Assembly: GCF_014764305.1 (NCBI RefSeq) | Contig: NZ_CP061703.1 | Location: 1,191,501 to 1,255,500 of the forward strand | Direction of reading: 5' to 3' | DNA from: Mesoflavibacter profundi | Lineage (GTDB): Bacteria; Bacteroidota; Bacteroidia; Flavobacteriales; Flavobacteriaceae | Length of the DNA stretch: 64,000 nt | In this document: positions 26,727 through 59,649 of the stretch, in pieces | Layout: each line of letters begins with the position of its first letter | How positions within the stretch are numbered: position 1 is the stretch's first letter | Position numbers and translations under genes: made by a program | The notes under the pieces: generated by a model | Database searches by the model: none | What the model was told of the DNA's origin: nothing | What the model saw: the letters and a program-made list of their open reading frames with translations, nothing else

Positions 26727-26748
26727 AAACGTTCCACGTGGAACGTTT
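26727..26748. promoter_or_regulatory. parS-like ParB-binding site 1
   Basis: A perfect 22-bp palindrome whose core is GTTCCACGTGGAAC, the parS core known from Pseudomonas and close to the B. subtilis consensus. It lies in the 76-nt gap between the end of mnmG and the methyltransferase gene. Identical 14-bp core to the second site at 28637-28652. Confidence 0.85.
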
Positions 26749-28636: not shown

Positions 28637-28652
28637 TGTTCCACGTGGAACG
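28637..28652. promoter_or_regulatory. parS-like ParB-binding site 2
   Basis: TGTTCCACGTGGAACG: 15 of 16 positions match the Pseudomonas parS TGTTCCACGTGGAACA. It lies between the mnmG -7 element and its ATG, so bound ParB could also affect mnmG transcription. Confidence 0.85.
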
Positions 28653-32700: not shown

Positions 32701-34212
32701 ATGTCAAAACAAGTTAGAGTGCGTTTTGCACCAAGTCCTACAGGACCTTTACATATTGGCGGTGTACGTACCGCATTATTTAATTATTTATTTGCAAAAA
32801 AACACAACGGTACTTTTGTGTTACGTATAGAAGATACAGACCAAAACCGTTATGTAGAAGGTGCAGAACAGTATATTATAGATAGTTTAAATTGGTGTAA
32901 TATTCCGTTTGACGAAGGTCCAAATAAAAATGAAAAATTTGGTCCGTACAGACAAAGCGAACGTAAAGACTTATACAAACAATATGCAGATCAATTAATA
33001 AAAAGTGGTCATGCGTATTATGCATTTGATACTGCAGAAGCACTTGATGCACACAGAAAAGACCATGAAGCTCAAGGAAAAACGTTTATCTACAATTGGC
33101 ATAACAGAGAAAAGTTAAGCAACTCTTTATCGCTTAGCGCAGAAGACGTGCAAGCTAAATTAGATGCTGGTGAAGATTATGTAATCAGATTTAAAAGTCC
33201 GCAAGATCAAACGCTTCATCTTAAAGATATTATTCGTGGTGATATAAAAATTGATACCAACATTTTAGATGATAAAGTTTTGTTTAAAGCAGACGGAATG
33301 CCAACTTATCACCTAGCTAATATTGTTGATGACCATTTAATGGAAATTACGCACGTTATTAGAGGTGAAGAATGGCTACCAAGTCTTGCTTTACATTACC
33401 AATTATACGATGCTTTTGGTTGGGAAGCACCAGAATTTGCACATTTACCGTTAATCCTAAAACCAACAGGAAAAGGAAAATTAAGTAAACGTGATGGCGA
33501 TAAATTAGGATTTCCTGTATTTCCTTTAGAATATACGTCTCCAGAAGGTGATGTGTCTAAAGGGTATAAAGAAGATGGATATTTTGCTGAAGCTGTTGTT
33601 AACTTTTTAGCCTTTTTAGGATGGAATCCTGGTACAGAACAAGAAATTTTTAGTTTAGAAGAACTTATAGAAGCGTTTGATTTATCTAAAGTGAATAAAG
33701 CCGGAGCACGTTTTGATCCAGATAAAATTAAATGGTTTAATCACCATTACATGCAAGAACAAAGTAATGATGATTTAGCTGAAGCGTTTAAACAAAATCA
33801 TGATTCATTAAAAGACATAGATGTTAATTACATATCAATGGTTGTTGGATTAATTAAAGAACGAGCAACATTTGTAAACGACTTTTGGGACTTAAGTAAT
33901 TTCTTCTTTGAAGCTCCAACAGAATACGATGAAAAAGCCTTTAAAAAAGCCATTAAAGACGATACAAAATCTATAATGACAGAGGTAAAATCTATCATAA
34001 ATAACATTGAAAATTTTGAAGTTGAAACACTTCAAAACGATGTAAAAGGTTGGATTACGTCTAACAACATTGGCTTTGGTAAAGTGATGATGCCACTACG
34101 TTTAGCCTTAGTTGGTGCATTACAAGGACCTGATGTTTTTGACATCATGTATATGATTGGTAAAAACGAAACTGTTAAACGTATTGATAATTTAATTGAA
34201 AAAATAGGTTAA
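32701..34212 (+). CDS. gltX: Glutamyl-tRNA synthetase
   Basis: Class I aminoacyl-tRNA synthetase charging tRNA-Glu. The HIGH-type motif is HIGG at residues 18-21 in PSPTGPLHIGG, and the KMSKS-type motif is KLSKRDGD. Length 503 is normal for Bacteroidota. A separate glnS lies 4 kb downstream, so a discriminating GluRS is expected rather than the transamidation route. It has a two-part promoter upstream and a bidirectional terminator downstream. Confidence 0.98.
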   Translation: MSKQVRVRFAPSPTGPLHIGGVRTALFNYLFAKKHNGTFVLRIEDTDQNRYVEGAEQYIIDSLNWCNIPFDEGPNKNEKFGPYRQSERKDLYKQYADQLIKSGHAYYAFDTAEALDAHRKDHEAQGKTFIYNWHNREKLSNSLSLSAEDVQAKLDAGEDYVIRFKSPQDQTLHLKDIIRGDIKIDTNILDDKVLFKADGMPTYHLANIVDDHLMEITHVIRGEEWLPSLALHYQLYDAFGWEAPEFAHLPLILKPTGKGKLSKRDGDKLGFPVFPLEYTSPEGDVSKGYKEDGYFAEAVVNFLAFLGWNPGTEQEIFSLEELIEAFDLSKVNKAGARFDPDKIKWFNHHYMQEQSNDDLAEAFKQNHDSLKDIDVNYISMVVGLIKERATFVNDFWDLSNFFFEAPTEYDEKAFKKAIKDDTKSIMTEVKSIINNIENFEVETLQNDVKGWITSNNIGFGKVMMPLRLALVGALQGPDVFDIMYMIGKNETVKRIDNLIEKIG

Positions 34213-42845: not shown

Positions 42846-45089
42846 CTACGCTTCGTGTTTACCAACTAAATCAAAATCTAAATGACGTTTTACTAAATCT
42901 GCTTGTTTTACTTTTACAACAACTTCGTCTCCTAATTGGTACATGTTTTTTGTGTCGCGTCCAACAAGTGCAAATTGGTCTTGATCAAACTCATAATAAT
43001 CGTCTTTTATATCTCTAATACGCACCATTCCTTCGCATTTATTGGAGATAATTTCGACATAAATTCCCCAATCGGTTACACCAGAAATTACACCAACAAA
43101 TTCTTCGTCTTTATGATCTTGCATAAACTTAATTTGCATGTATTTTATGCTATCACGTTCGGCTTTTGTCGCTAAATTTTCCATGTTACTTGAGTGCATA
43201 CATTTTTCTTCATAAATCTCTTCGTTTGCACTTTTTTCGCCATCTAAATAACGTTGTAATAAACGATGCGCCATAACGTCTGGATAACGTCTAATTGGCG
43301 ATGTAAAATGGCTGTAATAATCAAAAGCTAATCCGTAATGTCCTATGTTATGCGTAGTATATTCGGCTTTAGCCATAGTACGAATTGCTAAAGTATCTAC
43401 TAAATTTTGCTCTTTTTGACCTTGAACATCTTCTAATAATTTGTTTAATGAAGATGAAATACTATCACGACTTTTAAAGTTAAGTTTATGACCAAATCTA
43501 GCAACTACACCTTGTAAAGCAGCTAATTTACTTTCGTCTGGCTCGTCATGAACACGATAAACAAAGGTTTTTGAAGGTTTCATTTTAGAAACAAACTCTG
43601 ATACTTTACGGTTAGCTAATAGCATAAATTCTTCTATTAACTTGTTAGCATCTTTACTGGTCTTAAAATGAACACCTGTAGGATTTGCTTGTTCATCTAA
43701 AGTAAATCTTACTTCTACTTTATCAAAACTAATTGCTCCAGAACGCATACGTTTGCTTCGCATTTTCTTTGCTAATCGGTCTAAAACTAAAATTGCCTCA
43801 GCTATTTCTGGTTGCGTATTGTATGTTTTACCAGTAAGTGAAACGTCTTCTGGAATTTCGGTTTTTATGGATGACATTTCTGTATTATTAGAAATGACAA
43901 AATCTGTGTTATTTTCTATAACAGCTTGCGCTTCTTCGTAAGCAAATCTTGCATCACTATACGTTACTGTTCTACCAAACCATTGGTCTTTGATTTCAGC
44001 TTTATCATTTAATTTAAAAACTGCCGAGAACGTATATTTTTCTTCATGCGGACGTAAAGAACATGCGCCATTACTTAATATTTCTGGTAGCATTGGTACT
44101 ACTCTATCTACTAAATAAACAGATGTTGCACGCTCGTAAGCTTCATCATCTAAAATAGTACCTTCTTCTAAATAATGAGATACGTCTGCAATGTGTATTC
44201 CTATCTCAAATAAGCCATTTTCTAGAACTTTAATGGATAATGCATCATCAAAATCTTTTGCGTCTTTAGGATCTATGGTAAAGGTTAAATCTTTACGCAT
44301 ATCGCGACGTTTTTTAATTTCTTCTGGCTTAATAGAGGTATCTATTTGATTTGCAAAATCTTCGACTTCTTTTGGGAATTCATACGGTAAACCATATTCG
44401 GCTAAAATAGCATGGATTTCTGTATTATGTTCTCCTGGTTTACCAAGGACTTCTTTTACACGTCCGTTTGGTGAATCTGCTTTTTCTGGCCAATCTACTA
44501 ACTCTACTAAGACTTTATCACCATCTTCAGCTTTATTAATTTTGTTAATAGGTACAAAAATATCTGTAGTCATTTTGTTAGAATCTGGGACTACAAATGC
44601 AAAATTATTCTTTTCGTGTATTTGTATAACACCAACATATTGCGTTTTTGCACGCTTAATAATTTGTGTGATTTCACCTTCTAACTTACCGCGTTTACGA
44701 CGTTTAAAGACGTAAAGTTCTACTTCGTCACCATCTAATGCTTTATTAACATTGTTAGAAGCAATAAATATATCTTCTTCAAAAGCGTCACAAATTACAT
44801 AGCCAGATCCACGTGATGACGCATCAAAAATACCAGTGTGATACTCGGTATTTACAATAGCTTTAAATTTACCACGATCTACTTCTTCAATCTCTTGCTT
44901 AGCTTTAAGCTGCGCAAGTTTTTTTATAATTTGGTTACGACTACTAGCATCATTAACGCCTAATTTGGCAGCAATTTGCTTGTAGTTAAAGGGTTTATTA
45001 CGTTCTTTTCTAAGTATGTTTAGAATAGTCTCTGTTAGATTGGAAATCTTATTATGACTAGGTTTCCTTTTCTTTTTCTTCTTTGACAT
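42846..45089 (-). CDS. rnr: Ribonuclease R
   Basis: 3'-5' exoribonuclease that degrades structured RNA. 747 residues: N-terminal basic HTH-like region (KKKKKRKPSHN, then AAKLGVNDASSRNQIIKKL), cold-shock domains, the RNB catalytic domain with FTIDPKDAKDFDDALSI (the Asp cluster) and IADVSHYL, and a C-terminal S1 domain (EFVGVISGVTDWGIYVEI). Length is normal. It is divergent from rpiB across the 709-bp candidate origin region. Confidence 0.96.
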   Translation of the reverse strand: MSKKKKKRKPSHNKISNLTETILNILRKERNKPFNYKQIAAKLGVNDASSRNQIIKKLAQLKAKQEIEEVDRGKFKAIVNTEYHTGIFDASSRGSGYVICDAFEEDIFIASNNVNKALDGDEVELYVFKRRKRGKLEGEITQIIKRAKTQYVGVIQIHEKNNFAFVVPDSNKMTTDIFVPINKINKAEDGDKVLVELVDWPEKADSPNGRVKEVLGKPGEHNTEIHAILAEYGLPYEFPKEVEDFANQIDTSIKPEEIKKRRDMRKDLTFTIDPKDAKDFDDALSIKVLENGLFEIGIHIADVSHYLEEGTILDDEAYERATSVYLVDRVVPMLPEILSNGACSLRPHEEKYTFSAVFKLNDKAEIKDQWFGRTVTYSDARFAYEEAQAVIENNTDFVISNNTEMSSIKTEIPEDVSLTGKTYNTQPEIAEAILVLDRLAKKMRSKRMRSGAISFDKVEVRFTLDEQANPTGVHFKTSKDANKLIEEFMLLANRKVSEFVSKMKPSKTFVYRVHDEPDESKLAALQGVVARFGHKLNFKSRDSISSSLNKLLEDVQGQKEQNLVDTLAIRTMAKAEYTTHNIGHYGLAFDYYSHFTSPIRRYPDVMAHRLLQRYLDGEKSANEEIYEEKCMHSSNMENLATKAERDSIKYMQIKFMQDHKDEEFVGVISGVTDWGIYVEIISNKCEGMVRIRDIKDDYYEFDQDQFALVGRDTKNMYQLGDEVVVKVKQADLVKRHLDFDLVGKHEA

Positions 45090-45798
45090 TTATATTTTTT
45101 AATGTATTGAATTTCTTTAAAGTTAAATGAAATTCGGTTATGTTTTAAACTTAAATTTAAAGGAGAGACGATTTTTAAGTTTATACAAAGCTACATTTTT
45201 AAATTTAAAATAAAATTAAGGAAGCGTTAAATAAAAAACTTTATTCACATTTATATTATATATACTTTCTTTTCTTTTAAAAATTTAAAAAAATAATGAT
45301 GATGATTATTGTTTGTTAATAACGGTATAACTTTTTCAAATTTTTGTTTGATTTGTTAGTTAACAAAATCTATTAACAGCTTATTAGCTATTTAACTTAT
45401 TGATTTTTAAGCATACTAATTAGGTTATTAACAGTTGTTAAAAACGTAAACTAACATCTAATTTTTAATAAATACTTATAAAATTGACGTTGAAAATTGA
45501 CTTTTTAGTGCTAATAACTTTACAAAAAATTAAGGTTAACTAATTTTGATGTTAACTAAACGTTACGGATTGTAATTTTTAAGTTGAAATCCAAATAAAT
45601 CTTTTAAAAAACAATAAGAAGATATTAACAAGTAATTAATAGTATTAAAAGAGTAATTAACAATTATTGTAGTTATTAACAGGTATGCTATAAAATACCG
45701 TTGGTTTTAATTTTTATGAATAAGTTAACCGCTTTATTTTATTAATAATGACAAGCAATTAGTAACTTTGAAACACAATTAACAACACAACAATTATT
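45090..45798. other. Gene-free AT-rich region, candidate oriC
   Basis: 709 bp without a credible gene, the longest such gap in the window, between the divergent rnr and rpiB genes. It holds one perfect DnaA-box match TTATTCACA at 45241-45249. Near-matches TTATTAACA (one difference) lie at 45425-45433 and 45673-45681 and, on the minus strand, at 45314-45322. CTATTAACA is at 45370-45378, and further TTAACA variants follow, for example at 45621-45631. A very AT-rich stretch with ATATTATATATA follows the perfect box. The two parS-like sites (26.7 and 28.6 kb), mnmG and rnpA are nearby, as around many origins. No dnaA gene is in the window, so this stays a candidate. Confidence 0.4.
45763..45770 (+). 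promoter_or_regulatory. Putative -7 element of the rpiB operon
   Basis: TAACTTTG matches TAnnTTTG, 28 nt before the rpiB ATG. Confidence 0.45.
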
Positions 45799-46233
45799 AT
45801 GAAAATTTCAATAGGAAACGATCACGCTGGTACCGAATATAAATTTGCTATCAAAAAGCATTTAGAAGCTAAAGGTATTACAGTTATTAATTATGGTACA
45901 GATGCATCAGATAGTGTAGATTATCCAGATTTTGTACATCCAGTCGCTAAAGATGTAACAGATAATGCTGCCGATTTTGGTATACTTATTTGCGGTAGTG
46001 CAAATGGTGTAGCAATAACTGCTAACAAACACCAAAAGGTTAGAGCAGGTGTTTGTTGGACTAAAGAAATTACAGAATTAACGCGATTGCATAACAACGC
46101 CAACGTAATGTGTATACCTGCTAGATATACTGCTTTACAACAAGCCATAGCAATGGTAGATACGTTTTTAGATACAAAATTTGAAGGCGGAAGACACCAA
46201 AATAGAGTGGATAAAATTCCTGTTTGCTCTTAA
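45799..46233 (+). CDS. rpiB: Ribose-5-phosphate isomerase B
   Basis: 144 residues. Pentose phosphate enzyme interconverting ribose 5-phosphate and ribulose 5-phosphate. RpiB motifs: GNDHAGTEYK at the N-terminus, catalytic Cys65 in ILICGSANG, His98 in LHNNANV, and the phosphate-binding Arg-containing tail RHQNRVDKI. First gene of a three-gene plus-strand operon; the CDF transporter starts 2 nt after its stop. Confidence 0.96.
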   Translation: MKISIGNDHAGTEYKFAIKKHLEAKGITVINYGTDASDSVDYPDFVHPVAKDVTDNAADFGILICGSANGVAITANKHQKVRAGVCWTKEITELTRLHNNANVMCIPARYTALQQAIAMVDTFLDTKFEGGRHQNRVDKIPVCS

Positions 46234-47668: not shown

Positions 47669-48508
47669 TTACTTAGAAATATGTCTTATTAAAATTTCTA
47701 CTCTTCTATCTTCTTTTGTAGATCCACCTAAGTTATATTTTCCGGCTAATCCTTGATATCTCACTCTTTTAGCATCTACTCCTGCTTTTACTAAATAATC
47801 TCTAATATATTTAGCTCTTACAACGCTTAAGTTTAATTTACCAGTTTCTCTATCTCTAGATTCTCTACCATTTTCTGTACAACATACATGTCCATTAATA
47901 GTAAAAAAGATATCTGTTCTTTTAACTAAAAAGTCTGCTAATTCCTGTAAAGCTTTTTTAGATTCTGGAGTTAAGTAACGATACCCTAAAACAAAATTTA
48001 AACTTTTAAGATTTATTAAATCACCTTTATTAACATCTTCTGCAAAAAAAGAACCAGCTATTAATTTTTTAGGAGCAATAACAATAGATACTTTTCTGTT
48101 TAAAGCTCTTAATTCTTTAAATAAAGCTTCTTCTTTAGTATTTAAAGCAACTTCACCTTTACCTTTTACATTTAATATTTCTGGTTGTTTAGTGCTATTT
48201 CTATAAGAAATAATAATTTTCTTAATTGCTTCTGCACGTTTATTTGATAATGTTTTGTTGTAATTAGCATTACCTCTATCATCACAATATCCAACTATAG
48301 ACATTCTTTCTATATCAACATCTTTAGTTTCATTTAAAAATTGTACAAGTTTTGTAAATTCTTCTTTTGTGATTTGGTGTTTATCTGTATCAAAATAAAC
48401 ATCATGCTTAACTACTTTACTAGATTTTGTTTTTAAAGTAGTGTTATTAGCATTAACAAAATTGTTAACCGAAACAATAAATAAAAATATGTAGCTTAAG
48501 TTTTTCAT
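47669..48508 (-). CDS. Double OmpA-domain exported protein (copy 1)
   Basis: 279 residues with a signal peptide (through about residue 20, FVNAN), no beta barrel and two OmpA-like peptidoglycan-binding domains. The first (about 32-145) keeps the usual GYCDDRGNANYNKTLSNKRA block, with the Asp and Arg that bind diaminopimelate. The second (about 165-279) has GHVCCTENGRESRD and LSVVRAKYIRDYL: the Arg remains but the Asp of the usual GHTD is Cys, next to a second Cys. It ends in the DRRVEILI strand. Own -7 element. Paralogue of the next gene upstream (48747-49604). Confidence 0.78.
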   Translation of the reverse strand: MKNLSYIFLFIVSVNNFVNANNTTLKTKSSKVVKHDVYFDTDKHQITKEEFTKLVQFLNETKDVDIERMSIVGYCDDRGNANYNKTLSNKRAEAIKKIIISYRNSTKQPEILNVKGKGEVALNTKEEALFKELRALNRKVSIVIAPKKLIAGSFFAEDVNKGDLINLKSLNFVLGYRYLTPESKKALQELADFLVKRTDIFFTINGHVCCTENGRESRDRETGKLNLSVVRAKYIRDYLVKAGVDAKRVRYQGLAGKYNLGGSTKEDRRVEILIRHISK

Positions 48509-48531
48509 TTCAATAGTTATCTAAGGCGGCG

Positions 48532-48539
48532 CAAATGTA
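48532..48539 (-). promoter_or_regulatory. Putative -7 element of OmpA-domain gene copy 1
   Basis: Minus-strand TACATTTG (plus CAAATGTA), 23 nt upstream of the ATG at 48508. Confidence 0.5.
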
Positions 48540-48689
48540 CTGGCACACTTTAGTTTGCTGAAAATTTTTTGATTAACAACACTATTTTTAGATGAAAAAC
48601 ACCATTTAAGACAAGTGGTAAAATTTTACCGTTGAATCACTATTTTGTTTATCCGATTTTTTGAACCGTTAATGGATGTTTTTTACGAA

Positions 48690-48730
48690 TTCAAAAAAAA
48701 AGAGGTTGTAAAAACCTCCTTTTTTGAATT
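48690..48730 (-). terminator. Terminator of OmpA-domain gene copy 2
   Basis: Imperfect hairpin, AAAAAAGAGGTT paired with AACCTCCTTTTTT across a short loop, flanked by TTC/GAA. Located just past the stop at 48747. Confidence 0.7.
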
Positions 48731-48746
48731 ATTTTTTTAAAAAAGA

Positions 48747-49604
48747 TTATTCTTCTGCAATATATGTAATCACAATTTCTACTCTTCTATCGTATTTTGG
48801 ATCGCCACCAAGCGGAAATTTTCTTCGCATTCCGACATACTTCATTCGTTTTTTATCTACACCTTTTCGCGCTAAATAATCGTAAATATATTTGGCTCTT
48901 GCTACAGATAAATTTCGTTTTTGAGTTTTTTTATCTACTGCATCACGACTATTTTGTGTACAGCAAACATGTCCTTGTATGGTAAAGTATATATTTTTTT
49001 TAGCTACTAATATTTTTGCTAATTCTTCCAGAGTTTTTTTAGAGTCTGAAGTAACATAGCTGTAATTAGTTTTAAAGTAGATATTTTCTAATCTTATCTT
49101 ATCTCCTTTTTTTACTGTACCATTTGCTATGTCTTGTGTAGTTACTTTTTTGTCTTTTGTTGCAGTAGTTGTAACTTCTGGTTTTGCTGTTTCTTTGGTT
49201 TTATCCTTTGGTTTAACAATAATCTCTACTTTACGATTTAAACCTCTTATTTTATGGACTTCGTCTTCATTTAAAACTTTTAAAAGTATTTCGCCTTTAC
49301 CATTTACATTTGTTATTAAAGATTTATCTATCCCATAACTAGAAAACATGTCTTTTATAGCATCTGCTCTATTTTGCGATAATTCTAAATTATAATCGTT
49401 AGTACCACGATCGTCACAAAATCCATAAATAGAAATTTTATCTATTGCTATAGTGTCTAATGAAGAAATAAAAAGCAAAAGTCTGTTCTCTTCGGTTAAA
49501 GGTACATCGTATTCGTCTGTGTTAAAATATACATCGTGTTTTAACTCGTTTTGTGATATAACCGAACCTGTAATTAATAAAAATAGGATTAAAAATGATT
49601 TCAT
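48747..49604 (-). CDS. Double OmpA-domain exported protein (copy 2)
   Basis: 285 residues from the ATG at 49604 (MKSFLILFLLITGSVISQ, a normal signal peptide); an upstream in-frame ATG at 49634 would break this signal. Two OmpA-like domains with a Thr/Lys-rich linker between them (about 140-170). The first carries GFCDDRGTNDYNLELSQNRA; the second has GHVCCTQNSRDAVD and LSVARAKYIYDYLARKG, the same Cys-Cys variant as copy 1. It ends in DRRVEIVI. Adjacent to copy 1 in the same direction but with its own terminator, so a tandem duplication with separate transcription. Confidence 0.78.
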   Translation of the reverse strand: MKSFLILFLLITGSVISQNELKHDVYFNTDEYDVPLTEENRLLLFISSLDTIAIDKISIYGFCDDRGTNDYNLELSQNRADAIKDMFSSYGIDKSLITNVNGKGEILLKVLNEDEVHKIRGLNRKVEIIVKPKDKTKETAKPEVTTTATKDKKVTTQDIANGTVKKGDKIRLENIYFKTNYSYVTSDSKKTLEELAKILVAKKNIYFTIQGHVCCTQNSRDAVDKKTQKRNLSVARAKYIYDYLARKGVDKKRMKYVGMRRKFPLGGDPKYDRRVEIVITYIAEE

Positions 49605-49638
49605 TTTAAGTAAGATAACTTCTAAATATAGCAATTTT

Positions 49639-51273
49639 TTAATTAAGATATTTATTGTATTGGTTTGGATTTGCTAGTATTTGTGTTGCTGTTTTAATTT
49701 CTTGATTATTTATTTTATAATACTCGTAAAGTCCTTCTCTGTACACGTAACGTTTAACAATCTCGTCGGTTAGTAAGTTTACTAATTGTGTTTTGTTTTG
49801 GTCTACGGTTTTTATTTTTACCTGTTCTAGATGTTGTTGTAAATTATTGTATTCTTTTTTAATATCGTCGTCTAGATTTTCGGTTTTAGAGACTTCTAAA
49901 GCTTTTTTTAAGGCTTTTTCGGTTTCGGTTTCAAATTCAAAACTAGAAGTTTTTAAATGCGCTTTAAATGCGTTAAAATCTGAATCGGAAAGCTGAAAAT
50001 TATTAATATTTTCAATAGAATTATTGTAGTAGAATTGTGTTGCAAAATCAAAAATGGCTTGACTATTTAAAATGGCGTCTGTGATTGCCGAATTTTTGGT
50101 AGTTTCTAAAGCTTCATCTGGAAAAACGCCGCCACCATCATAGACTTTTCGTCCGTTTTTAGTTTTAAATTCATGATAATTTTCTTGTTTTATTCTTACC
50201 GCGTTACCATTTTCGTCACGATTCCAATAATCTAAAGACTGTATACAACGTCCAGAAGGCGTATAATATCTAGAAATTGTAACCTTAAGTTGTGTACCGT
50301 AAGTTAGCTTTTTTGGTCGCTGTACTAAACCTTTACCAAAACTACGTGCGCCAACAATTACTGCTCTATCTAAGTCTTGTAAAGCACCAGAAACAATCTC
50401 GGAAGCAGATGCGCTACGACCATTAATTAATACCACAACTGGAATTTTTGTATCTATTGGCTCTTGTTTTGTGTAATAGGTTTTATTGTATTTTTTTACC
50501 TTAGATTTTGTAGTTACTACCAATTGTCCTTTTGGTACAAAAAGGTTTACAATATTTATAGCTTCGCGAAGTAATCCACCAGGATTATTACGTAAATCTA
50601 ATATAATACTTTTTGCGCCTTGCGCCTTTAAATCTTTTAATGCATACTCGGTTTGCATAGAGGCTTTTGCATTAAATTTTTGAAGTACAATGTAGCCTGT
50701 AGTTTCATTAATCATAGAAAAATGAGGTACAGCATTAATTTCAATTTCAGAACGTGTTAAGGTTGTCGTATTGGTTTTTCCTTGACGTTTGTAGGTTACA
50801 TTTAATGTTGAATTTGGCGCGCCTTTTAATAGGTTAGAGGCATCATCTTCATAACCATCTACTTTTATACCATCTATTTCTATAATTTCGTCACCAGCTT
50901 TAAGACCAGCTTTGTCTGCTGGATAATCTTTATACGGTTCTACAACAACCAATTTATCTTTTAAAGTTCTAATTTTTGCACCAACGCCAGTATAATCTCC
51001 TGTACGACGTATACGCTCTGCTTCTACATCTTGCTCGTTATAAAATTTAGTATACGGATCTAAATCGTTAAGCATATTTTTAATGGCATTATCCATTAAA
51101 TCTGCAGGATTAGTCTCGTCTACGTAATTCATATTAAGCTCTTTAAAAAGCGTGGTAAAAATTTCGATTTGTTTAGCTATTTCGAAAAAATCACTTTTAA
51201 AGGCGCTTCCAGTTATAAATATTGTTAACGCAAAAACAGGAATTAAAATGCGTTTTTTAAATATCTTTTTCAT
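49639..51273 (-). CDS. C-terminal processing peptidase (S41 family) with PDZ domain
   Basis: 544 residues. N-terminal signal or membrane segment (ILIPVFALTIFITGSAF), a PDZ domain (GVGAKIRTLKDKLVVVEPYKDYPADKAGLKAGDEIIEI) and an S41 catalytic domain. The nucleophile is in GRSASASEIVSGAL and the catalytic Lys in GARSFGKGLVQ. Periplasmic protease of the Prc/CtpA type that trims the C-termini of exported proteins. It overlaps rnpA by 17 nt, so the two are translationally linked. Confidence 0.93.
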   Translation of the reverse strand: MKKIFKKRILIPVFALTIFITGSAFKSDFFEIAKQIEIFTTLFKELNMNYVDETNPADLMDNAIKNMLNDLDPYTKFYNEQDVEAERIRRTGDYTGVGAKIRTLKDKLVVVEPYKDYPADKAGLKAGDEIIEIDGIKVDGYEDDASNLLKGAPNSTLNVTYKRQGKTNTTTLTRSEIEINAVPHFSMINETTGYIVLQKFNAKASMQTEYALKDLKAQGAKSIILDLRNNPGGLLREAINIVNLFVPKGQLVVTTKSKVKKYNKTYYTKQEPIDTKIPVVVLINGRSASASEIVSGALQDLDRAVIVGARSFGKGLVQRPKKLTYGTQLKVTISRYYTPSGRCIQSLDYWNRDENGNAVRIKQENYHEFKTKNGRKVYDGGGVFPDEALETTKNSAITDAILNSQAIFDFATQFYYNNSIENINNFQLSDSDFNAFKAHLKTSSFEFETETEKALKKALEVSKTENLDDDIKKEYNNLQQHLEQVKIKTVDQNKTQLVNLLTDEIVKRYVYREGLYEYYKINNQEIKTATQILANPNQYNKYLN

Positions 51274-51643
51274 TCTTCTTTATATTAGAAACTTGGTCAT
51301 TAAATTTAGTGAGTAATGCCTTCATTTTTTTATCAATAATCTTAAAATCGGGCATTTCTTTACTAATATATAAAATCATTAGCGTGTAATGGTCTAACTT
51401 ATTGTCTATTAACAGATTTTTATTAAGTCTGTAGCCTTCACGTAGCAAGCGTTTTACTCGGTTACGATGTACCGCTAATTTAAAATTTCTTTTACTTACA
51501 GATACACCAACTTTTAATTGCGTTTGGTTATCTAGATAGACCATACGCAAAGGATATGCCGAAACAGATTTTCCTTCGGCAAATAACTGCTCAATTGCTT
51601 TTTGGCTTTTAAGTTTTTCGTCTTTATTGTATGTGTAGTGCAT
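51257..51643 (-). CDS. rnpA: Ribonuclease P protein component
   Basis: 128-residue basic protein assisting the RNase P RNA in 5'-processing of tRNA precursors. Signature RNRVKRLLREGYRLNK plus SVSKRNFKLAVHRN, and the usual start SQKAIEQLFAEGKSVSAYPLRMVYL. Length is normal. It lies between the S24 regulator (4 nt) and the Prc-type peptidase (17-nt overlap). rpmH is not seen, unlike the classic dnaA-rpmH-rnpA order. Confidence 0.95.
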   Translation of the reverse strand: MHYTYNKDEKLKSQKAIEQLFAEGKSVSAYPLRMVYLDNQTQLKVGVSVSKRNFKLAVHRNRVKRLLREGYRLNKNLLIDNKLDHYTLMILYISKEMPDFKIIDKKMKALLTKFNDQVSNIKKNEKDI

Positions 51644-51647
51644 TAAT

Positions 51648-52445
51648 TTAGTTTTTTAATGCTTCTTGAAGTTGTATCAATTTACTTTCAAGTTCGTGTA
51701 AACGGTCGTAAACATCTATTGGTTCTGGCATTTGTTTGGATGCAAACATAGTGACGTACCATACTTCCATAATATCTTCTGCATCTATCGTATAGGTTGG
51801 ATAGTTACCGTCTTTATTATCACTTTTTAAGATAAGTTTACCACGCTCTTCAATACGATTGATAACACGTTTTAAAACAATACCATCGTTTTTACTAACA
51901 ACTATATACACACGACCATCTTTAATATCTGATAAATCTTCTACGAACTTACCAAACACTAAATCGCCATCAAAAAATGTACGTACCATAGAGTTACCTT
52001 GCACTTCAAAACATCTATAGGTTCCGTTTGTAAGATGTGGCATATGGAAAGATGGTAAAGTCTCGATATACTCGCTATCTCCATAACCATCTAAATAACC
52101 AGCTCTTGCTTTTACAGGAACGTAAACTACGTTTTCTTCATCGTTTTGATTAACAGCAACGACTTGAGGAACTCCAGAATATGTTTGAATTTTAGCCACA
52201 TCTTGCTTTAACATCACATCACTTTTACCAAAAAGATAGTCAGGATTGATGTTAAATTGATCTATAATCGCACTTAACACATCATAACCAGGTTTGGTTT
52301 TTTTACGTGTCCCATCTGGTTGAGGTCTACCGTTAACAATACTGTCTATAGTTGTTCCGGTAACACCAATACGTTTTGAAAACGCATAATTATTAAGCTG
52401 AAAATGATTGATTATAGCGGTTATTTTTTGATCTATTTGCTGCAT
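51648..52445 (-). CDS. XRE-HTH regulator with LexA-like S24 peptidase domain
   Basis: 265 residues. N-terminal helix-turn-helix of the XRE type (AFSKRIGVTGTTIDSIVNGR, about 21-40). The C-terminal S24 domain has a possible self-cleavage Ala115-Gly116 pair, catalytic Ser152 in GNSMVRTFFDGD and Lys192 in LKRVINR. Spacing from cleavage site to Ser (36-37) and Ser to Lys (40) is close to LexA. The C-terminal tail (residues 240-265) forms a Leu-rich helix. It could repress a regulon and respond to RecA, but the targets are unknown; no phage genes are nearby. Upstream of rnpA in the same operon. Confidence 0.87.
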   Translation of the reverse strand: MQQIDQKITAIINHFQLNNYAFSKRIGVTGTTIDSIVNGRPQPDGTRKKTKPGYDVLSAIIDQFNINPDYLFGKSDVMLKQDVAKIQTYSGVPQVVAVNQNDEENVVYVPVKARAGYLDGYGDSEYIETLPSFHMPHLTNGTYRCFEVQGNSMVRTFFDGDLVFGKFVEDLSDIKDGRVYIVVSKNDGIVLKRVINRIEERGKLILKSDNKDGNYPTYTIDAEDIMEVWYVTMFASKQMPEPIDVYDRLHELESKLIQLQEALKN

Positions 52446-52527
52446 GTTTCTTAAAAGAAAGGTCTTGAAGACTTAAAATTTAAGCTAAGATATGAAAATT
52501 CAAACATTTGTAGATATTGTGGCTTAT

Positions 52528-53034
52528 CTAATCAAACAAAAACAGCAAACGTTCTTGACCATCTGGTAAACCAATAATATTGTTTGCATAATCGTTTTGA
52601 TATACTAAGTCTCCTTTTTTAATATAACCTTCAGCTTTTGGCATGCAAGCGCTCCAAGCACTAGAAGGTTTACAATCGTTAACATCTAATTTTACAATGG
52701 TATGATTATCTACAGTAATGACTACATTTTTAAAGTCTTTAGCTTTAGCTAAAGCATCTTTAATATTGTCTTTATTAAGTTTAACAACTTCGGTTGCAAT
52801 GTTTGTCGCTTTTGTTTTAAACGCTTCAATTGGATTAGCAGATTTGTCTTTTTCTAAGCTTTTAATATCTTTTAGAAAAGGTAAATCTGCGGTAGTTTCA
52901 GTATTTTTTTCAGTGTTTTGTGTAGAGGTTTCTGTATGTGTTGTGGTTTCTACTGTGGTTTCTACTTTTTCTTTTTGATTGTCTTTACAACTAAAAGCTA
53001 ATACTAGAATTAATACGTAGGCTAAATGTTTCAT
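52528..53034 (-). CDS. Uncharacterised lipoprotein
   Basis: 168 residues. The signal MKHLAYVLILVLAFSC has a lipobox (LAFSC). A Thr/Glu-rich linker (about 20-55) follows, then a compact C-terminal domain (LKDIKSLEKD, DVNDCKPSSAWSACMPKAEGY, GLPDGQERLLFLFD) with three Cys, of which two could form a disulfide. No family recognised. It has its own -7 element. Confidence 0.65.
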   Translation of the reverse strand: MKHLAYVLILVLAFSCKDNQKEKVETTVETTTHTETSTQNTEKNTETTADLPFLKDIKSLEKDKSANPIEAFKTKATNIATEVVKLNKDNIKDALAKAKDFKNVVITVDNHTIVKLDVNDCKPSSAWSACMPKAEGYIKKGDLVYQNDYANNIIGLPDGQERLLFLFD

Positions 53035-53061
53035 CTTTTTTCAGTTTTATTGATAGCTTTT

Positions 53062-53069
53062 CAAATATA
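53062..53069 (-). promoter_or_regulatory. Putative -7 element of the lipoprotein gene
   Basis: Minus-strand TATATTTG (plus CAAATATA), 27 nt upstream of the ATG at 53034. Confidence 0.5.
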
Positions 53070-53085
53070 AAGGATTAAGAATAAA

Positions 53086-53113
53086 AAAAGCTTCAACAAT
53101 TGTTGAAGCTTTT
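53086..53113 (-). terminator. Terminator of the M1 peptidase gene
   Basis: Perfect 14-bp palindrome arms (AAAAGCTTCAACAA with its complement), a tight loop formed from the centre bases, and a T-tract on each side. It lies past the M1 gene stop at 53136. Confidence 0.88.
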
Positions 53114-53135
53114 AATTTCATTTAAATAGACAGTA

Positions 53136-54959
53136 TTACTCTAATGTATTGTTGGTTTTATCAACATCTGCCATTAGTTGTTTTGGATCTATTGTTATGC
53201 TTTTTATGGCGCTTTTTGGCTTGTTTATACTAAAACTATAGGTTGGATATGCCCAAGCCCAATCGTTTAATATTTTTACGTTTGAAGCTAACGGTTTTTC
53301 GCCTCTCATAATTCTTAAAGGAATATTATACCATTCAGATGTTCCATCAGTATATTCTACTTCAATATCTAAAGGCATTGGCATTAAGCCTTTACGCTCT
53401 AAATTTACTGTTGTTATGCTATTATTTTCTTCTGTAGAAGTTACTGCATAATCAATAGTATTGGTTGTTTGTGTCCAATCTATTAAGTACCAATCTAATT
53501 CTAAACCTGATACTTTTTCGGCAGTTCTAATAATATCAATTGGTGTTGGATGTTTAAAAGCAAAATCGTTAAAGTACTTTTTTAGTGTTTTTTTAAGATT
53601 GTCTTCACCAATAATGTAACCTAATTGAGATAAAAATACAGAACCTTTGTTATAAGCTGTTATACCATAAGCCATATTAGTTTCGTAACGATCTGCATGT
53701 GTAGTTTGTGGTTTTTCTTTACCAGATTTTGCTAAATAAATGTAACCTCTATAAGCATTTGCGTTAGGAATTTCTTTTCCTTCGTTCATCACAACATTCA
53801 TAGCATGATCACTAATGTAGCTTGTAAAACCTTCGTCCATCCACTCGTGTCTAGCCTCGTTTGTCGCTAATAAAAATTGAAACCAAGTATGTGCTAACTC
53901 ATGTGCTGTTACACCAACTAAACTACCAAAGCTACGTTTACCTGTAATTAAAGTACACATAGCGTATTCCATACCGCCATCACCACCTTGAATAACAGAA
54001 TATTGATCGTAAGGATATTTACCTACGTTTTTAGAAAAATATTGCATTAACTCAACGGTTTTAGGTTGTAAATCTTTCCAATATTTTAAGTTATCTGCAG
54101 GTAAATCTTTTTTGTAATAAAAATGAAGCATTGGACCGTTTGGAACTTGCATCGAATCATGAATATAATCCGGATCTGCAGCCCAGGTAAAGTCATGCAC
54201 ATTAGGCGCTAAAAATTGCATTGTTTTTTTGTCGCCTTTAATTTCAGGTTCGCCCTGTAAGTAACCAGTACCACCAACAACATAATCTTTATCTATGGTT
54301 AAGTTAACTTCAAAATCTCCCCAAACACCATGAAACTCGCGTCCTATGTAAGGATCTGCATGCCAACCTTCAAAATCATATTCAGCTAACTTAGGATACC
54401 ATTGTGTCATAGAAAGCGCAACGCCTTCTGCATTATCACGTCCAGAACGACGAATTTGAACTGGTACTTGCGCATCAAAATCCATTGTAAATGTTACACT
54501 TTGACCTGGTTGAATAGGTTGAGCTAATTCTACTTCTAAAACAGTACCAACCGTTTCATAATTAATTTTTTTACCGTCTTGCTTTAGGCTATTTACGTTT
54601 ATGTAACCAATCTCGTTTGGTTTTAATTTACTTATACGATCACCAACTCTAGAATCTGGATCTTCAATAGTGCGAGAACGCACATCCATTTCGCTACCTG
54701 GTTGAAATGCATTAAAGTATAAATGATAAAATACTTTATTTAAAACGTCTGGTGAGTTATTTGTATACACCAATGTTTGTTTTCCTTGGTATTGATAATT
54801 GTTTACATCCATATCAATATCCATTTTATAATCTACATGTTGTTGCCAATATGTAGAGTTTTTTTCAGTTGAACTTTCTGAAGTTGAAACCGCTTGTTTT
54901 GTCGAACTACAAGCAGTTAAAAAACCGAAAGCAACGGTAAGAAGCAATAATTTTTTCAT
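53136..54959 (-). CDS. M1 family zinc aminopeptidase-like lipoprotein
   Basis: 607 residues. The signal MKKLLLLTVAFGFLTAC carries a lipobox, so it is probably on the periplasmic side. Zinc site HELAH (residues 353-357) and Glu376 in WMDEGF, i.e. HExxH-x18-E. The GAMEN-type block is GGMEYAM (328-334). The C-terminal region lacks the long ERAP1-like domain, as in many Bacteroidota M1 proteins. It would remove N-terminal residues from peptides. Monocistronic between two terminators. Confidence 0.93.
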   Translation of the reverse strand: MKKLLLLTVAFGFLTACSSTKQAVSTSESSTEKNSTYWQQHVDYKMDIDMDVNNYQYQGKQTLVYTNNSPDVLNKVFYHLYFNAFQPGSEMDVRSRTIEDPDSRVGDRISKLKPNEIGYINVNSLKQDGKKINYETVGTVLEVELAQPIQPGQSVTFTMDFDAQVPVQIRRSGRDNAEGVALSMTQWYPKLAEYDFEGWHADPYIGREFHGVWGDFEVNLTIDKDYVVGGTGYLQGEPEIKGDKKTMQFLAPNVHDFTWAADPDYIHDSMQVPNGPMLHFYYKKDLPADNLKYWKDLQPKTVELMQYFSKNVGKYPYDQYSVIQGGDGGMEYAMCTLITGKRSFGSLVGVTAHELAHTWFQFLLATNEARHEWMDEGFTSYISDHAMNVVMNEGKEIPNANAYRGYIYLAKSGKEKPQTTHADRYETNMAYGITAYNKGSVFLSQLGYIIGEDNLKKTLKKYFNDFAFKHPTPIDIIRTAEKVSGLELDWYLIDWTQTTNTIDYAVTSTEENNSITTVNLERKGLMPMPLDIEVEYTDGTSEWYNIPLRIMRGEKPLASNVKILNDWAWAYPTYSFSINKPKSAIKSITIDPKQLMADVDKTNNTLE

Positions 54960-54981
54960 AAGTTAATTTTTAGTTGAAATA

Positions 54982-55015
54982 AAAAAGCCTCAACAGAATA
55001 GGGTTGAGGCTTTTT
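54982..55015 (-). terminator. Terminator of the subtilase gene
   Basis: 13-bp perfect stem (AAAAAGCCTCAAC with its complement) and an 8-nt loop, located past the S8 stop at 55030. Confidence 0.88.
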
Positions 55016-55029
55016 AAATTTTATATAAA

Positions 55030-56643
55030 TTATTTAGAAATTTGAGACGCCATAATTAATGCGTTGTAAGCATTAACAATTTTAGCAGATTTACTAATTT
55101 CTGATAATGATTTAATATTATTTGCATCACCACCAACAATAAGCTTTGATTTAACTGGTAAACCAGAATCCATAATTATTTGTTTTACTTGAGATGCTTT
55201 TAATTTAGGGTATTGTGACCAAACTAAAGCAGCAACACCAGCAACTGCAGGAGCAGCCATACTTGTTCCACCTTTTGTGTCATATTCGTTTTCTGGAGTT
55301 GTAGAGTATACTTGTGCTCCTGGAGCAAATACATCTACGTTTTTAAGTCCGTAGTTAGAAAATCCAGCAATCATTTTAGTCCCATAACTTGGCGCTAATG
55401 CTCCAACACGAATGTAAGTATCTGAAATTTCAACAAAATCTACATTATCATCAGGGAAATTTGGTTCTACATCTACATTTTTACTGTCGTTACCTGCTGC
55501 GTGAACAAAAATAACGTTATTATCACTTGCGTATTTAATAGCATCTCTTACCCACTCAGAATGTGGAGAAAAGCTTTTACCAAAACTACCATTAATTACT
55601 TTTGCACCGTTATCTACAGCATATCTAATAGCTTTTGCGATGTCTTTATCATACTCGTCACCATTTGGTACAGCTCGTAAAGACATTATTTGTACGTTAT
55701 TTGCAACACCATTAGCACCTAATCCATTATTACGCTCGGCAGCGATAATACCAGCAACGTGTGTACCGTGACTTTCAGATTTTACTGAAGGCATTACGTT
55801 GTTGTTACCATAACCTGGTTTGTCATTAAAATCGTCTGGATTATCACCAGTAGTACGACCTTTAAAATCTTTGTTTAAGTTATAGTTTAATTGGTCTGTA
55901 AAATATTCGATACCACCTTTTAATTGCTTTTTAGCTTCTGTCATAGATGTTAATCCGTAACCGTAAAGCATAGTAGCAGCTGCTTTAGCTTCGACTACTT
56001 TTTGATCTTCTGAGGTAATTTCACTTACTTCTTTTGGTGTATAATCTTCTTTTCCAAAATGTTTTGATAAAACATCATGAGCATTAGTTACTTGAGTGTA
56101 TAATTGATCGTAACGTTGTTTGTTAGATAAAGCACGTTGGTAATCTTGTTCTACTTTTTCTACAGCTTCGTTATATCTTGCTATGCTTGTGTTACCACTA
56201 GCTGCGATACGCGTCATTTCTAACTGCTCGTTGTAAGCATCGCCTAAAAAATTCCAACCGTGTATATCGTCTATGTAACCATTTTTATCATCGTCAATAC
56301 CGTTACCTGGAATTTCGTCTGTATTTGTCCATAAAACACCATCTAAATCTTCATGCTCGATGTCTATACCAGAGTCTATTACAGCAACAATAATTTGTTG
56401 TCCTTTTTTACCTTTAATAATTTCGGCGTAAGCCTTATCAACACTCATTCCAGGAATCGTGTCTTTTACTAAATCTAAATGTCCCCAATTGTGTGCTTCG
56501 GCTTCTGTTAATTCAGATTCTTTAATAGGTGTATTGTCAATATTTTCTATTGGTGTAGATAAGATTGGTGCATTACCACCACAACTTGAAAGCACAACTG
56601 CTGCAAATGCAGACAGCATTAATGGCTTGTAATTAATTGTCAT
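55030..56643 (-). CDS. S8 family serine protease (subtilase) lipoprotein
   Basis: 537 residues. The signal ends in the lipobox VLSSC (residue 21). Catalytic triad: Asp90 in VAVIDSGIDIEHEDL, His292 in SHGTHVAGI and Ser461 in GGTSMAAP. Between Asp90 and His292 lie about 200 residues, far more than the roughly 35 in subtilisin. They include a Lys/Glu/Tyr-rich helical insertion (about 137-260), which may act as a built-in propeptide or substrate lid. It starts 23 nt after the MBL-fold gene and ends at a hairpin. Confidence 0.93.
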   Translation of the reverse strand: MTINYKPLMLSAFAAVVLSSCGGNAPILSTPIENIDNTPIKESELTEAEAHNWGHLDLVKDTIPGMSVDKAYAEIIKGKKGQQIIVAVIDSGIDIEHEDLDGVLWTNTDEIPGNGIDDDKNGYIDDIHGWNFLGDAYNEQLEMTRIAASGNTSIARYNEAVEKVEQDYQRALSNKQRYDQLYTQVTNAHDVLSKHFGKEDYTPKEVSEITSEDQKVVEAKAAATMLYGYGLTSMTEAKKQLKGGIEYFTDQLNYNLNKDFKGRTTGDNPDDFNDKPGYGNNNVMPSVKSESHGTHVAGIIAAERNNGLGANGVANNVQIMSLRAVPNGDEYDKDIAKAIRYAVDNGAKVINGSFGKSFSPHSEWVRDAIKYASDNNVIFVHAAGNDSKNVDVEPNFPDDNVDFVEISDTYIRVGALAPSYGTKMIAGFSNYGLKNVDVFAPGAQVYSTTPENEYDTKGGTSMAAPAVAGVAALVWSQYPKLKASQVKQIIMDSGLPVKSKLIVGGDANNIKSLSEISKSAKIVNAYNALIMASQISK

Positions 56644-56666
56644 TGCGTTTTATTGTTTAGTAATTG

Positions 56667-57527
56667 TTAATTAAATATATCGTTGCACGTAAATGTGTCT
56701 TTTAATCGTACGCCTTTTTCGGTATGTTGTACGGTTATAATTTCGTTATGTGCATCGTGTTCCAAAAATAAGTAATAATTGTTATCTGCTGCTAGGTTTA
56801 AGAATTTTTCTTTTTCATCTAAGGTCAGTAATGGTCTTGTATCATAACCCATTACAAAAGGTAAAGGTAAATGCCCAACAGTTGGTAAAAGATCTGCCAT
56901 AAAACAAATGGTTTTTCCTTTATAGTTAATCATAGGAATCATTTGTTTTTCTGTATGTCCATCTGCAAAAAAGATGTCAAAACCAAGCTCTGAGTTTTTT
57001 AATATGTCGTTTTGCGGAATACTTGTAAATTTTAAGTGACCGCTGTCTTGCATTGGTAAAATGTTTTCTTTTAAAAAGGATGCAACTTCACGTCGATTAG
57101 GTTGTGTTGCCCATTGCCAATGATTTTTATTACTCCAAAAGTGAGCGTTTTTAAAAGCAGGTTCTAATTTTGTACGGTCTTTATTGTAATTTATGCTTCC
57201 TCCACAATGGTCAAAATGAAGATGCGTCATGAATACATCTGTAACATCATCTGTAGAAAAACCTGCATTATTAAGCGATTTTTCTAAGGAATAATCTCCC
57301 CAAAGATGGTAGTATCCATAAAATTTTTCGCTTTGTTTGTTGCCCATTCCAGTATCTATTAATATTAACCGATTACCGTCTTCTATTAATAAGCATCTAG
57401 CAGCAATATCTATCATATTATTACTATCTGCAGGATTAGTTCTGGTCCATAAAGATTTTGGGACTACGCCAAACATTGCGCCGCCATCTAATTTAAAATT
57501 TCCAGATTCTATTGGATATAATTTCAT
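56667..57527 (-). CDS. MBL-fold metallohydrolase
   Basis: 286 residues, no signal peptide. The metallo-beta-lactamase motif THLHFDHCGG (HxHxDH) lies near residue 100, with later His residues (FFADGHTEKQM and FLEHDAHNE) completing a dinuclear metal site. Substrate unknown; relatives include lactonases and thiol hydrolases. First gene of a two-gene operon with the subtilase. Confidence 0.88.
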   Translation of the reverse strand: MKLYPIESGNFKLDGGAMFGVVPKSLWTRTNPADSNNMIDIAARCLLIEDGNRLILIDTGMGNKQSEKFYGYYHLWGDYSLEKSLNNAGFSTDDVTDVFMTHLHFDHCGGSINYNKDRTKLEPAFKNAHFWSNKNHWQWATQPNRREVASFLKENILPMQDSGHLKFTSIPQNDILKNSELGFDIFFADGHTEKQMIPMINYKGKTICFMADLLPTVGHLPLPFVMGYDTRPLLTLDEKEKFLNLAADNNYYLFLEHDAHNEIITVQHTEKGVRLKDTFTCNDIFN

Positions 57528-57749
57528 GTAAAATGAATAATTGTAAGACTTAATATTTGTTGCAAATTACTAATTATAGACTAATACATATTAAATATTA
57601 AGGATTTATTAAGAAATATGGTTATTCCTGCATTATAATTAGAGTTCTTCTAAATTTTTCATTATACATTTTCATATTATTATCTAAATTTGGGTTAAAT
57701 GTTATTGAAAAATTAACATTATTAGTATTTTCACGAAAAATCAAATTAA

Positions 57750-59609
57750 ATGTTAGAACTAGCCGGCATAATTATTTTAGGAATTTTAGCGCAATGGGTT
57801 GCATGGAAATTTAAAATACCTGCAATTTTACCATTAATCTTAATTGGGTTATTAGTTGGTCCAATTGCTGCAGAATTTTTATCCTTTGATGGAAAAAAAT
57901 GGATAGAACCTATTTGGAATGGAGAAGAAGGTCTTTTTCCTGGAGAAAGTTTATTCTACTTTGTCTCTTTAGCCATAAGTATAATTCTGTTTGAAGGTGG
58001 ACTAACCCTAAAAATGGCCGAAATAAAAAACGTAGGTCCTGTAATTACTAAATTAATATCTATTGGATCTATTGTTACTTTTTTTGGAGCAGGAATTGCA
58101 GCACATTACATTTTTGGATTAAGTTGGGAAATCTCATTTTTATTTGCTGGTTTAATCATAGTAACTGGACCAACGGTAATTACACCAATTTTAAGAAATA
58201 TTCCTTTAAAAAAGGATGTTTCAGCAGTTTTAAAATGGGAAGGTATTTTAATAGATCCTATAGGTGCTTTAGTAGCCGTATTAGTATTTGAATTTATTAG
58301 TGTAGATGCTGGCGGAGAATTTACAAAAACAGCTTTAATCGAATTTGGTAAAATTGTACTTTTTGGTGCTACTTTTGGATTTACATTTGCTCATGCATTA
58401 AACTTTATTATTAATAAAAAATGGGTACCACATTATTTACTTAATGTTTTTTCTTTAGCTGCAGTTTTAGGTGTATTTGTTTTATCAGATGCATTTGCGC
58501 ACGAATCTGGTTTATTAGCAGTTGTAGTTATGGGTATGGTTTTAGGTAACTCTAAATCACCTTACTTAAAAGATTTACTTTATTTTAAAGAGTCTTTAAG
58601 TGTACTATTAATTTCAATTTTATTTATTCTTTTAGCTGCTAATATTAATTACAGCGATTTACTTTTAATCTATAATTGGCAAACAGTAGCATTATTTTCT
58701 GTAGTTGTATTTTTAATTAGACCATTAGGCGTATTTATTAGTACTCATGGTTCTAAATTAAAACTAAACGAAAAGCTTTTTATTAGTTGGGTTGGACCAA
58801 GAGGTATTGTTGCTGCAGGTATTGCCTCTTTATTTGGATTAAAGCTAGCTAAAAAAGGCGTTTATGGTGCAGAATATATTACACCTTTAGTTTTTGTAAT
58901 TGTACTAGGTACAGTTTTATTAAATGCCACAACAGCTAGATTATTTGCTAGATTAGTTGGTGTATTTTTAAATAAATCTAGCGGAATTTTAATTGTTGGC
59001 GCTTCTAAAGTTTCTAGATTAATAGGGCATTATTTAGAATCTAATGGCAGACATGTTGTTTTAATAGATAGCAACCAAACCAATATTAATAAAGCTAAGG
59101 AGCTTGGTCTAGAAGCATTAAATACAGATATTTATTCTCAAACTTTATTAGATAATATAGAATTAAATGACGTTGGTTATCTTATGGCATTAACAGGAAA
59201 TAGTGATATTAATAAATATGCTATAAATAAGTTTGCTAAACAATTTGGAGAAAATGGTGCTTTTAGATTAGTCTCTACTGCAGAAATATTAGACGAAACA
59301 AATAGTCCCAAAGAAGGATTATTTTCTCATACAGATGATTATAATTCTTTATCTGCGGTTACTAGAAAATTTCCAAGTATTCAAGAAATTGAAATTATTG
59401 ATAAAGCTCACTTAGAAGACTTGATAAAGACTACAAATAATGATAAAGATATTATTCCTTTATTTATAAAAGATGATGAAGGCGAATTACATATAATAGC
59501 TTCTGATAATACCGATTTAGGTGATGTAAAAGCAGGTTTTAAACTTGTGTATTTAGGAAAACCTTTAGATGTAGAAAAAGTAGATACAGTTCAAAACCAA
59601 ACTAATTAA
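57750..59609 (+). CDS. NhaP-type cation:proton antiporter with C-terminal TrkA-N (RCK) domain
   Basis: 619 residues. An N-terminal block of about 12 membrane helices carries CPA1 features (FEGGLTLKMAEIKNVGPV, GILIDPIGALVAVLVFE, WVGPRGIVAAGIASLFGLKLA). A cytoplasmic nucleotide-binding TrkA-N domain starts GILIVGASKVSRLIGHYLESNGRHVVLID. This is the layout of NhaP2/CvrA-like proteins that exchange Na+ or K+ for H+ under nucleotide control. The 222-bp gap upstream shows no clear gene or TAnnTTTG element. A bidirectional terminator follows. Confidence 0.92.
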   Translation: MLELAGIIILGILAQWVAWKFKIPAILPLILIGLLVGPIAAEFLSFDGKKWIEPIWNGEEGLFPGESLFYFVSLAISIILFEGGLTLKMAEIKNVGPVITKLISIGSIVTFFGAGIAAHYIFGLSWEISFLFAGLIIVTGPTVITPILRNIPLKKDVSAVLKWEGILIDPIGALVAVLVFEFISVDAGGEFTKTALIEFGKIVLFGATFGFTFAHALNFIINKKWVPHYLLNVFSLAAVLGVFVLSDAFAHESGLLAVVVMGMVLGNSKSPYLKDLLYFKESLSVLLISILFILLAANINYSDLLLIYNWQTVALFSVVVFLIRPLGVFISTHGSKLKLNEKLFISWVGPRGIVAAGIASLFGLKLAKKGVYGAEYITPLVFVIVLGTVLLNATTARLFARLVGVFLNKSSGILIVGASKVSRLIGHYLESNGRHVVLIDSNQTNINKAKELGLEALNTDIYSQTLLDNIELNDVGYLMALTGNSDINKYAINKFAKQFGENGAFRLVSTAEILDETNSPKEGLFSHTDDYNSLSAVTRKFPSIQEIEIIDKAHLEDLIKTTNNDKDIIPLFIKDDEGELHIIASDNTDLGDVKAGFKLVYLGKPLDVEKVDTVQNQTN

Positions 59610-59612
59610 AAT

Positions 59613-59644
59613 AAAAAAAGCCTTCTAAAAAGAAGGCTTTTTTT
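59613..59644. terminator. Bidirectional terminator between the antiporter gene and lepA
   Basis: 14-bp perfect stem (AAAAAAAGCCTTCT with its complement) and an AAAA loop; T-tracts on both sides. Confidence 0.92.
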
Positions 59645-59649
59645 ATTGG

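Follow-up and report, generated by a model that had tools for sequence, protein, structure and literature searches.

Introduction

Replication origins of the kind known from Escherichia coli and Bacillus subtilis are recognised by a cluster of DnaA boxes, an AT-rich core, a GC-skew minimum and parS nearby, and a DnaA of the usual make-up. A position beside dnaA is common and is not a defining trait of oriC. The box consensus of E. coli is TTWTNCACA, and the available part of PMC5043019 describes variation among boxes together with it. In the family of the present genome, predictions made with Ori-Finder 2022 place the origin neighbourhood at mnmG. In the available text on Mariniflexile litorale (PMC11278836), dnaA does not fit the skew plot and Ori-Finder points to mnmG, with the labels of the figure legend reversed relative to the text; for Algorimicrobium, the available text of PMC12843772 likewise gives a predicted oriC at mnmG. 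An excerpt on Elizabethkingia meningoseptica (PMC8994065) reports a 649-bp predicted oriC located at 0.741 Mb of the record and dnaA located at 2.613 Mb. In the parts of other papers that were available, Blattabacterium is described as having neither dnaA nor boxes (PMC2768785), an oriC is merely stated to have been predicted (PMC4759079), and TTATCCACA is used as the default box while indicator genes are scored (PMC10225481).

Here, the gap between rnr and rpiB in Mesoflavibacter profundi is analysed. The window, which is the whole stretch of 64,000 nucleotides that was analysed, covers bases 1,191,501–1,255,500 of a chromosome that consists of a single contig of 3,088,198 bp, and the gap occupies bases 1,236,590–1,237,298. 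The first-pass annotation had put this gap forward as a candidate origin, which is supported by the box density, the skew plateau, the uniqueness of the core and its conservation. The gap holds a cluster of DnaA boxes that is conserved and unique and lies close to the skew minimum and to parS, and it is very probably the place where chromosome copying starts.

The region has in common with the oriC of E. coli and B. subtilis the five features named above; unlike origins of that kind, it is not beside dnaA and shows no excess of DnaA-trios. Five of its six boxes read NTATTAACA, carry A as the sixth letter of the box and fall outside the E. coli consensus as given in the available part of PMC5043019. 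The oriC of E. meningoseptica, as described in the excerpt, resembles the gap in its intergenic size and its distance from dnaA. Whereas the predictions for Mariniflexile and Algorimicrobium, in the text available, name mnmG, here mnmG is the site of parS and has no box, and the cluster lies 16.5 kb away. Among the matches listed for open-licence PMC text, rnr–rpiB was not named as an origin, and a joint search of that text for ribonuclease R, ribose 5-phosphate isomerase B and oriC returned 0 papers; DoriC may hold the interval.

Structure of the intergenic region

The gap is 709 bp long with 19% G+C and is flanked by the divergent genes rnr (42846–45089, minus strand) and rpiB (45799–46233, plus strand), both names being backed by NCBIfam, in agreement with the earlier description of an AT-rich gap between divergent genes. 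An Rfam scan of 44900–46000 gave no match at E up to 1. The nearest match of rpiB among the named loci was an uncultured Olleya (88%). The features of the gap, in window coordinates, are as follows.

45090..45798, no strand: proposed oriC, intergenic, 19% G+C, between divergent rnr and rpiB
45238..45681 (approximate), plus strand: proposed oriC core, first to last DnaA box, profile positions ~150–600
45241..45249, plus strand: DnaA box TTATTCACA; a box here in 34 of 39 relatives
45250..45300, no strand: candidate DNA-unwinding element, most AT-rich stretch of the gap
45314..45322, minus strand: DnaA box TTATTAACA; relatives with a box here: 35 of 39
45370..45378, plus strand: DnaA box CTATTAACA; relatives with a box here: 9 of 39
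45425..45433, plus strand: DnaA box TTATTAACA; relatives with a box here: 27 of 39 (consensus CTATTAACAACTGTTAATAAC)
45622..45630, plus strand: DnaA box ATATTAACA; relatives with a box here: 35 of 39
45673..45681, plus strand: DnaA box TTATTAACA; a box at the aligned place in 0 of 39 relatives

The core is the portion that remains in one piece when DNA has been inserted on one side of it or the other. The candidate unwinding element has 10–14% G+C in 50-bp windows, compared with 16–24% elsewhere in the gap, which is a modest contrast. The five boxes that had been named at the outset (45241, 45314, 45370, 45425 and 45673) are all present; the list was incomplete in that the sixth, ATATTAACA at 45622 on the plus strand, had been overlooked.

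The number of boxes is beyond chance. The pattern NTAT[TC][AC]ACA occurs 6 times in the gap, compared with a mean of 0.32 and a maximum of 3 in dinucleotide shuffles, none of the 2000 shuffles reaching 6. When 709-bp windows were scanned over 1.14 Mb (37%) of the chromosome, the gap was the highest, one window overlapping its rnr side held 5 boxes, and the non-overlapping windows held 3 or fewer. Both comparisons had been named beforehand as checks, against shuffled sequence and against other AT-rich gaps, and both came out in favour of an origin. Over the whole window, TTATTAACA occurs 13 times compared with 4.37 expected (0 of 100 shuffles reached 13), and TTATNCACA shows no enrichment (3 compared with 4.78). 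The chromosome carries 187 sites of TTATTAACA, and among the 100 of these places that were listed, three forward copies within 1 kb were found at the gap only, one of the three falling inside rnr.

The cluster might alternatively titrate or reset DnaA, in the manner of datA or DARS, near an origin that escaped detection, and boxes are indeed frequent around the gap as well (34.8–48.3 kb of the window). Such a reading is very improbable, given that the limit of 3 boxes per 709-bp window, overlaps with the gap and its rnr side excepted, holds across the 1.14 Mb, in which 1.08–1.41 Mb is unbroken, and that loci of the datA and DARS type in E. coli are located away from oriC.

Several other patterns were scanned. 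The canonical box TTATCCACA alone was rejected as an origin marker, as none is present in the gap and two never occur within 5 kb; it is found 22 times on the chromosome compared with 55 times for the reversed pattern, as if canonical boxes were avoided. In a scan for DnaA-trios, the mean longest run was 2.42 in 40 gaps compared with 2.48 in Markov sequences, which is no excess. Further boxes near the gap lie at 41040, 41139, 41575, 44543, 44743, 46913 and 48027 of the window, and three copies of TTATTAACA fall within 544 bp at 41.0–41.6 kb.

Conservation of the core

The comparison was made on 80 named rpiB loci, in 72 of which rnr lies divergently upstream within 10 kb; of the remaining eight, L067 and L092 end near rpiB and six show no rnr. 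The rnr–rpiB spacing is at least 605 bp in the 72 loci and goes down to 424 bp in unnamed loci of the family. Words were counted in 49 of the 72 gaps (550–1450 bp), and 39 gaps (550–1050 bp) were aligned together with the window. A model, R1, was built from 38 of the 39 aligned gaps, after a length filter, and the window; it is composed of 226 core positions, takes only sequence into account and includes 45238–45448, the first 211 bases of the core. The alignment and R1 are biased in being built from gaps adjacent to rpiB; the R1 searches spanned whole genomes, and the filters applied to them drop some weak matches.

In the 49 gaps, TATTAACA occurs 166 times compared with 14.1 expected and is present in every gap. 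Of the six box positions, four are occupied by a box in 27–35 of the 39 relatives, one in 9 and one in 0. Where the first box lies, the relatives carry TTATCCACA (15), TTATCAACA (12), TTATTCACA (6) or TTATTAACA (1), so that the letters interchange while the position itself is kept; the remaining positions mostly hold [CTA]TATTAACA. Well-kept blocks other than boxes flank the second box in relatives (window 45300–45337), reading approximately T[TG]ATTAT[AT]G before it and ATAACTTTT after it.

A match to the gap profile is present in 78 of the 80 named loci. L092, which stops 125 bp upstream of rpiB, is without a profile match, and L114, a named locus from the Flavobacteriaceae, has neither the core nor rnr in the 10 kb upstream of rpiB. 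Within 1.14 Mb of the present genome, the gap is the sole significant match. In the 1 kb upstream of rpiB of 38 unnamed or own loci of the family, 162 boxes were counted compared with 16.5 expected, the reversed words giving 26. The whole-genome searches with R1 returned one match in this genome and matches in 54 genomes of the 60 in the family sample, representing 53 of 59 genera, which describes a core that occurs once per chromosome and is conserved in relatives; a second, weaker match was found in each of G018, G049 and G055. The best match lies 193–521 bp upstream of rpiB in the same orientation in 50 of the 54 genomes, the other four being G002 (2.6 kb), G053, G051 and G014 (at a contig end). 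R1 found no match in six of the 60 genomes (G003, G004, G020, G032, G043 and G058).

The position of the gap between divergent genes also fits a promoter-regulatory region shared by rnr and rpiB, in which TATTAACA would be bound by a transcription factor. The profile match is split into two pieces in 28 of the 80 named loci, the first ending at 120–202 and the second starting at 113–155, approximately at the first box, with extra DNA ranging from less than 100 bp to ~9 kb; the rnr-side part that is separate in these loci is perhaps rnr's own promoter. The core, however, is kept where DNA lies between it and rpiB (1.3–3.1 kb from rpiB in L079, L085, L091 and L113, and 8 kb in L078), where DNA separates it from the rnr side (the remaining split loci), and in four Flavivirga loci that have no rnr match within 10 kb (L097, L098, L103 and L110). 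In G053, the core (5626–5844 of locus L257) lies 18 kb from rpiB in a ~740-bp gap of the mnmG neighbourhood, flanked by homologues of the window genes 29108–32569 and 32701–34212, and the 12 kb around it contain no rnr match. In G051, an assembly with 8% contamination, the core (11956–12153 of locus L258) shares a contig with parS while rpiB is on a different one, and this contig ends 139 bp past the core, on the expected rnr side. The interchange of boxes with TTATCCACA also speaks against a promoter. Since the core persists with inserted genes or with rnr elsewhere, it is not simply a promoter, and we regard that reading as highly unlikely.

In a sample of the wider order Flavobacteriales, R1 matched 22 of 59 genomes: 9 of 9 in family f1 and 13 of 50 in the other families (f2, 2 of 2; f4, 2 of 7; f6, 6 of 8; f13, 2 of 2; f14, 1 of 4), with no match in f3, f5, f7–f12 and f15 of this sample. 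Eleven of the 13 matches outside f1 lie 256–327 bp upstream of rpiB in the same orientation, and the two in f2 are on contigs other than that of rpiB; for 7 of these 11, the analysis covered 1.5 kb of upstream sequence, and it contained no rnr match. Box words upstream of rpiB numbered 16 in f6 (0.8 expected, reversed words 1), 9 in f7 (1.4 expected, reversed words 3), 15 in f4 (1.5 expected) and 2 in f3 (0.4 expected, reversed words 3), and none were present in f2, f8 and f11; the excess in f4 is weak because the reversed words also reach 9. We would give an even chance to an ancestral Flavobacteriales origin that is tied to rpiB and uncoupled from dnaA, has a DnaA recognising the relaxed box NTAT[TC][AC]ACA, and can occupy a different gap of the mnmG neighbourhood without being lost, as in G053.

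Position on the chromosome

The GC skew was sampled in 40 stretches of 20 kb for this chromosome and in 20 samples for each relative. The sampled cumulative skew has its minimum at 1.32–1.40 Mb and its maximum at 2.79–2.87 Mb. In the contiguous sequence of 1.08–1.41 Mb, the lowest point is at 1,248,870, which is 12 kb to the right of the gap, and the minimum forms a broad plateau of ~1.235–1.35 Mb that begins about at the gap (1.237 Mb). In the contiguous sequence of 2.70–2.88 Mb, the maximum is reached at 2.765 Mb and a shoulder extends to 2.81 Mb, and the antipode of the gap, 2.781 Mb, falls within the skew maximum of 2.76–2.81 Mb. The gap is at the skew minimum and opposite the maximum, as far as a partly sampled chromosome and a broad plateau define them; a minimum next to dnaA, which would have spoken against the first-pass annotation, was not what was found. 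With the gap as origin, the contrast between the arms was equalled by 0 of 5000 permutations, whereas with dnaA as origin the contrast is negative, i.e., of the wrong sign. On the antipodal axis, 5% of positions slightly beat the gap, and the sampled optimum is 1.325–1.395 Mb.

In two of three relatives, the sampled minimum brackets rpiB: 0.78–0.97 Mb in G013 (rpiB at 0.911 Mb; 0 of 5000 permutations reach the contrast) and 2.67–2.85 Mb in G050 (rpiB at 2.741 Mb; 5 of 5000). In G029, the minimum is 1.16–1.35 Mb with rpiB outside at 1.628 Mb, where the curve is nearly as low; 28 of 5000 permutations reach the contrast at rpiB and 15% of positions are better. When two breakpoints were fitted freely, the axes came out differently in this genome (ori 2.17–2.25 Mb) and in G050 (2.31–2.49 Mb), and rpiB fell within the fitted ori in G013 and G029; because this fit is noisy, it was set aside for the antipodal axis test. 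The fourfold-site skew by strand was too noisy for use. As the earlier description had conceded, the genes to the right of the gap (window 47669–61452) are mostly on the minus strand, head-on to a rightward fork.

Two parS sites lie in the window.

26731..26744, no strand: parS GTTCCACGTGGAAC, exact consensus
28638..28651, no strand: parS GTTCCACGTGGAAC, exact consensus

They flank mnmG (26754–28625) close by, 16.4 and 18.4 kb from the gap, and bear out the parS-like pair reported earlier; GTTCCACGTGGAAC has no other occurrence on the whole chromosome, and the looser pattern GTTNNACGTNNAAC finds one further site, at base 19,245. In the family sample, GTTCCACGTGGAAC is present in 51 of 60 genomes. 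Taking the first parS site of each of 44 of these 51 genomes, the present one included, parS and rpiB share a contig in 38 of the 44, 4–65 kb apart with a median of 18 kb, and parS and dnaA do so in 8. In seven single-contig genomes, again including this one, dnaA lies 0.47–0.95 of a half-chromosome from rpiB. In the present record, dnaA is at base 1, 1.24 Mb from the gap, and is not beside the box cluster. A strict dif-like pattern was absent from the 1.14 Mb covered, and a loose one gave 21 scattered matches there, singling out no dif site.

That the real origin lies at dnaA, where the record begins following annotation habit, or at mnmG, next to which published Ori-Finder predictions place oriC in related genera (available text of PMC11278836 and PMC12843772), is extremely unlikely in view of the wrong skew sign for dnaA and of the absence of boxes from the last 1.3 kb before dnaA and from mnmG with its flanks (25600–29200). 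As mnmG is only 16.5 kb from the gap, the published and present predictions agree at the scale of the chromosome.

Proposed mechanism and its implications

We have high confidence in the full explanation, in which the gap is oriC, opened by DnaA, with two forks and with segregation through parS and ParB. DnaA, encoded 1.24 Mb away, would bind the array of NTAT[TC][AC]ACA boxes and would then open the AT-rich stretch 45250–45300, the putative unwinding site, in the ordinary DnaA-driven manner. Following initiation, two forks would travel away from each other and converge near 2.78 Mb, while ParB bound to the parS pair at mnmG may assist the segregation of the new origins.

The origin proposed here is ordinary in kind, and its detail is useful in giving an exact, testable origin for a large bacterial group. 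Base 1 of the record is at dnaA, 1.24 Mb off, and a correct origin is needed to estimate growth rate from coverage, to analyse the replication arms and to construct replicating vectors. The shift in the box further prompts the question of how recognition by DnaA changed. The protein has the usual make-up; among solved structures it is matched best by 8btg, which we take to be the DnaA of B. subtilis, and it has RDHATV where 8btg has RDHTTV, the threonine of which presumably contacts the box, judging from the E. coli structure.
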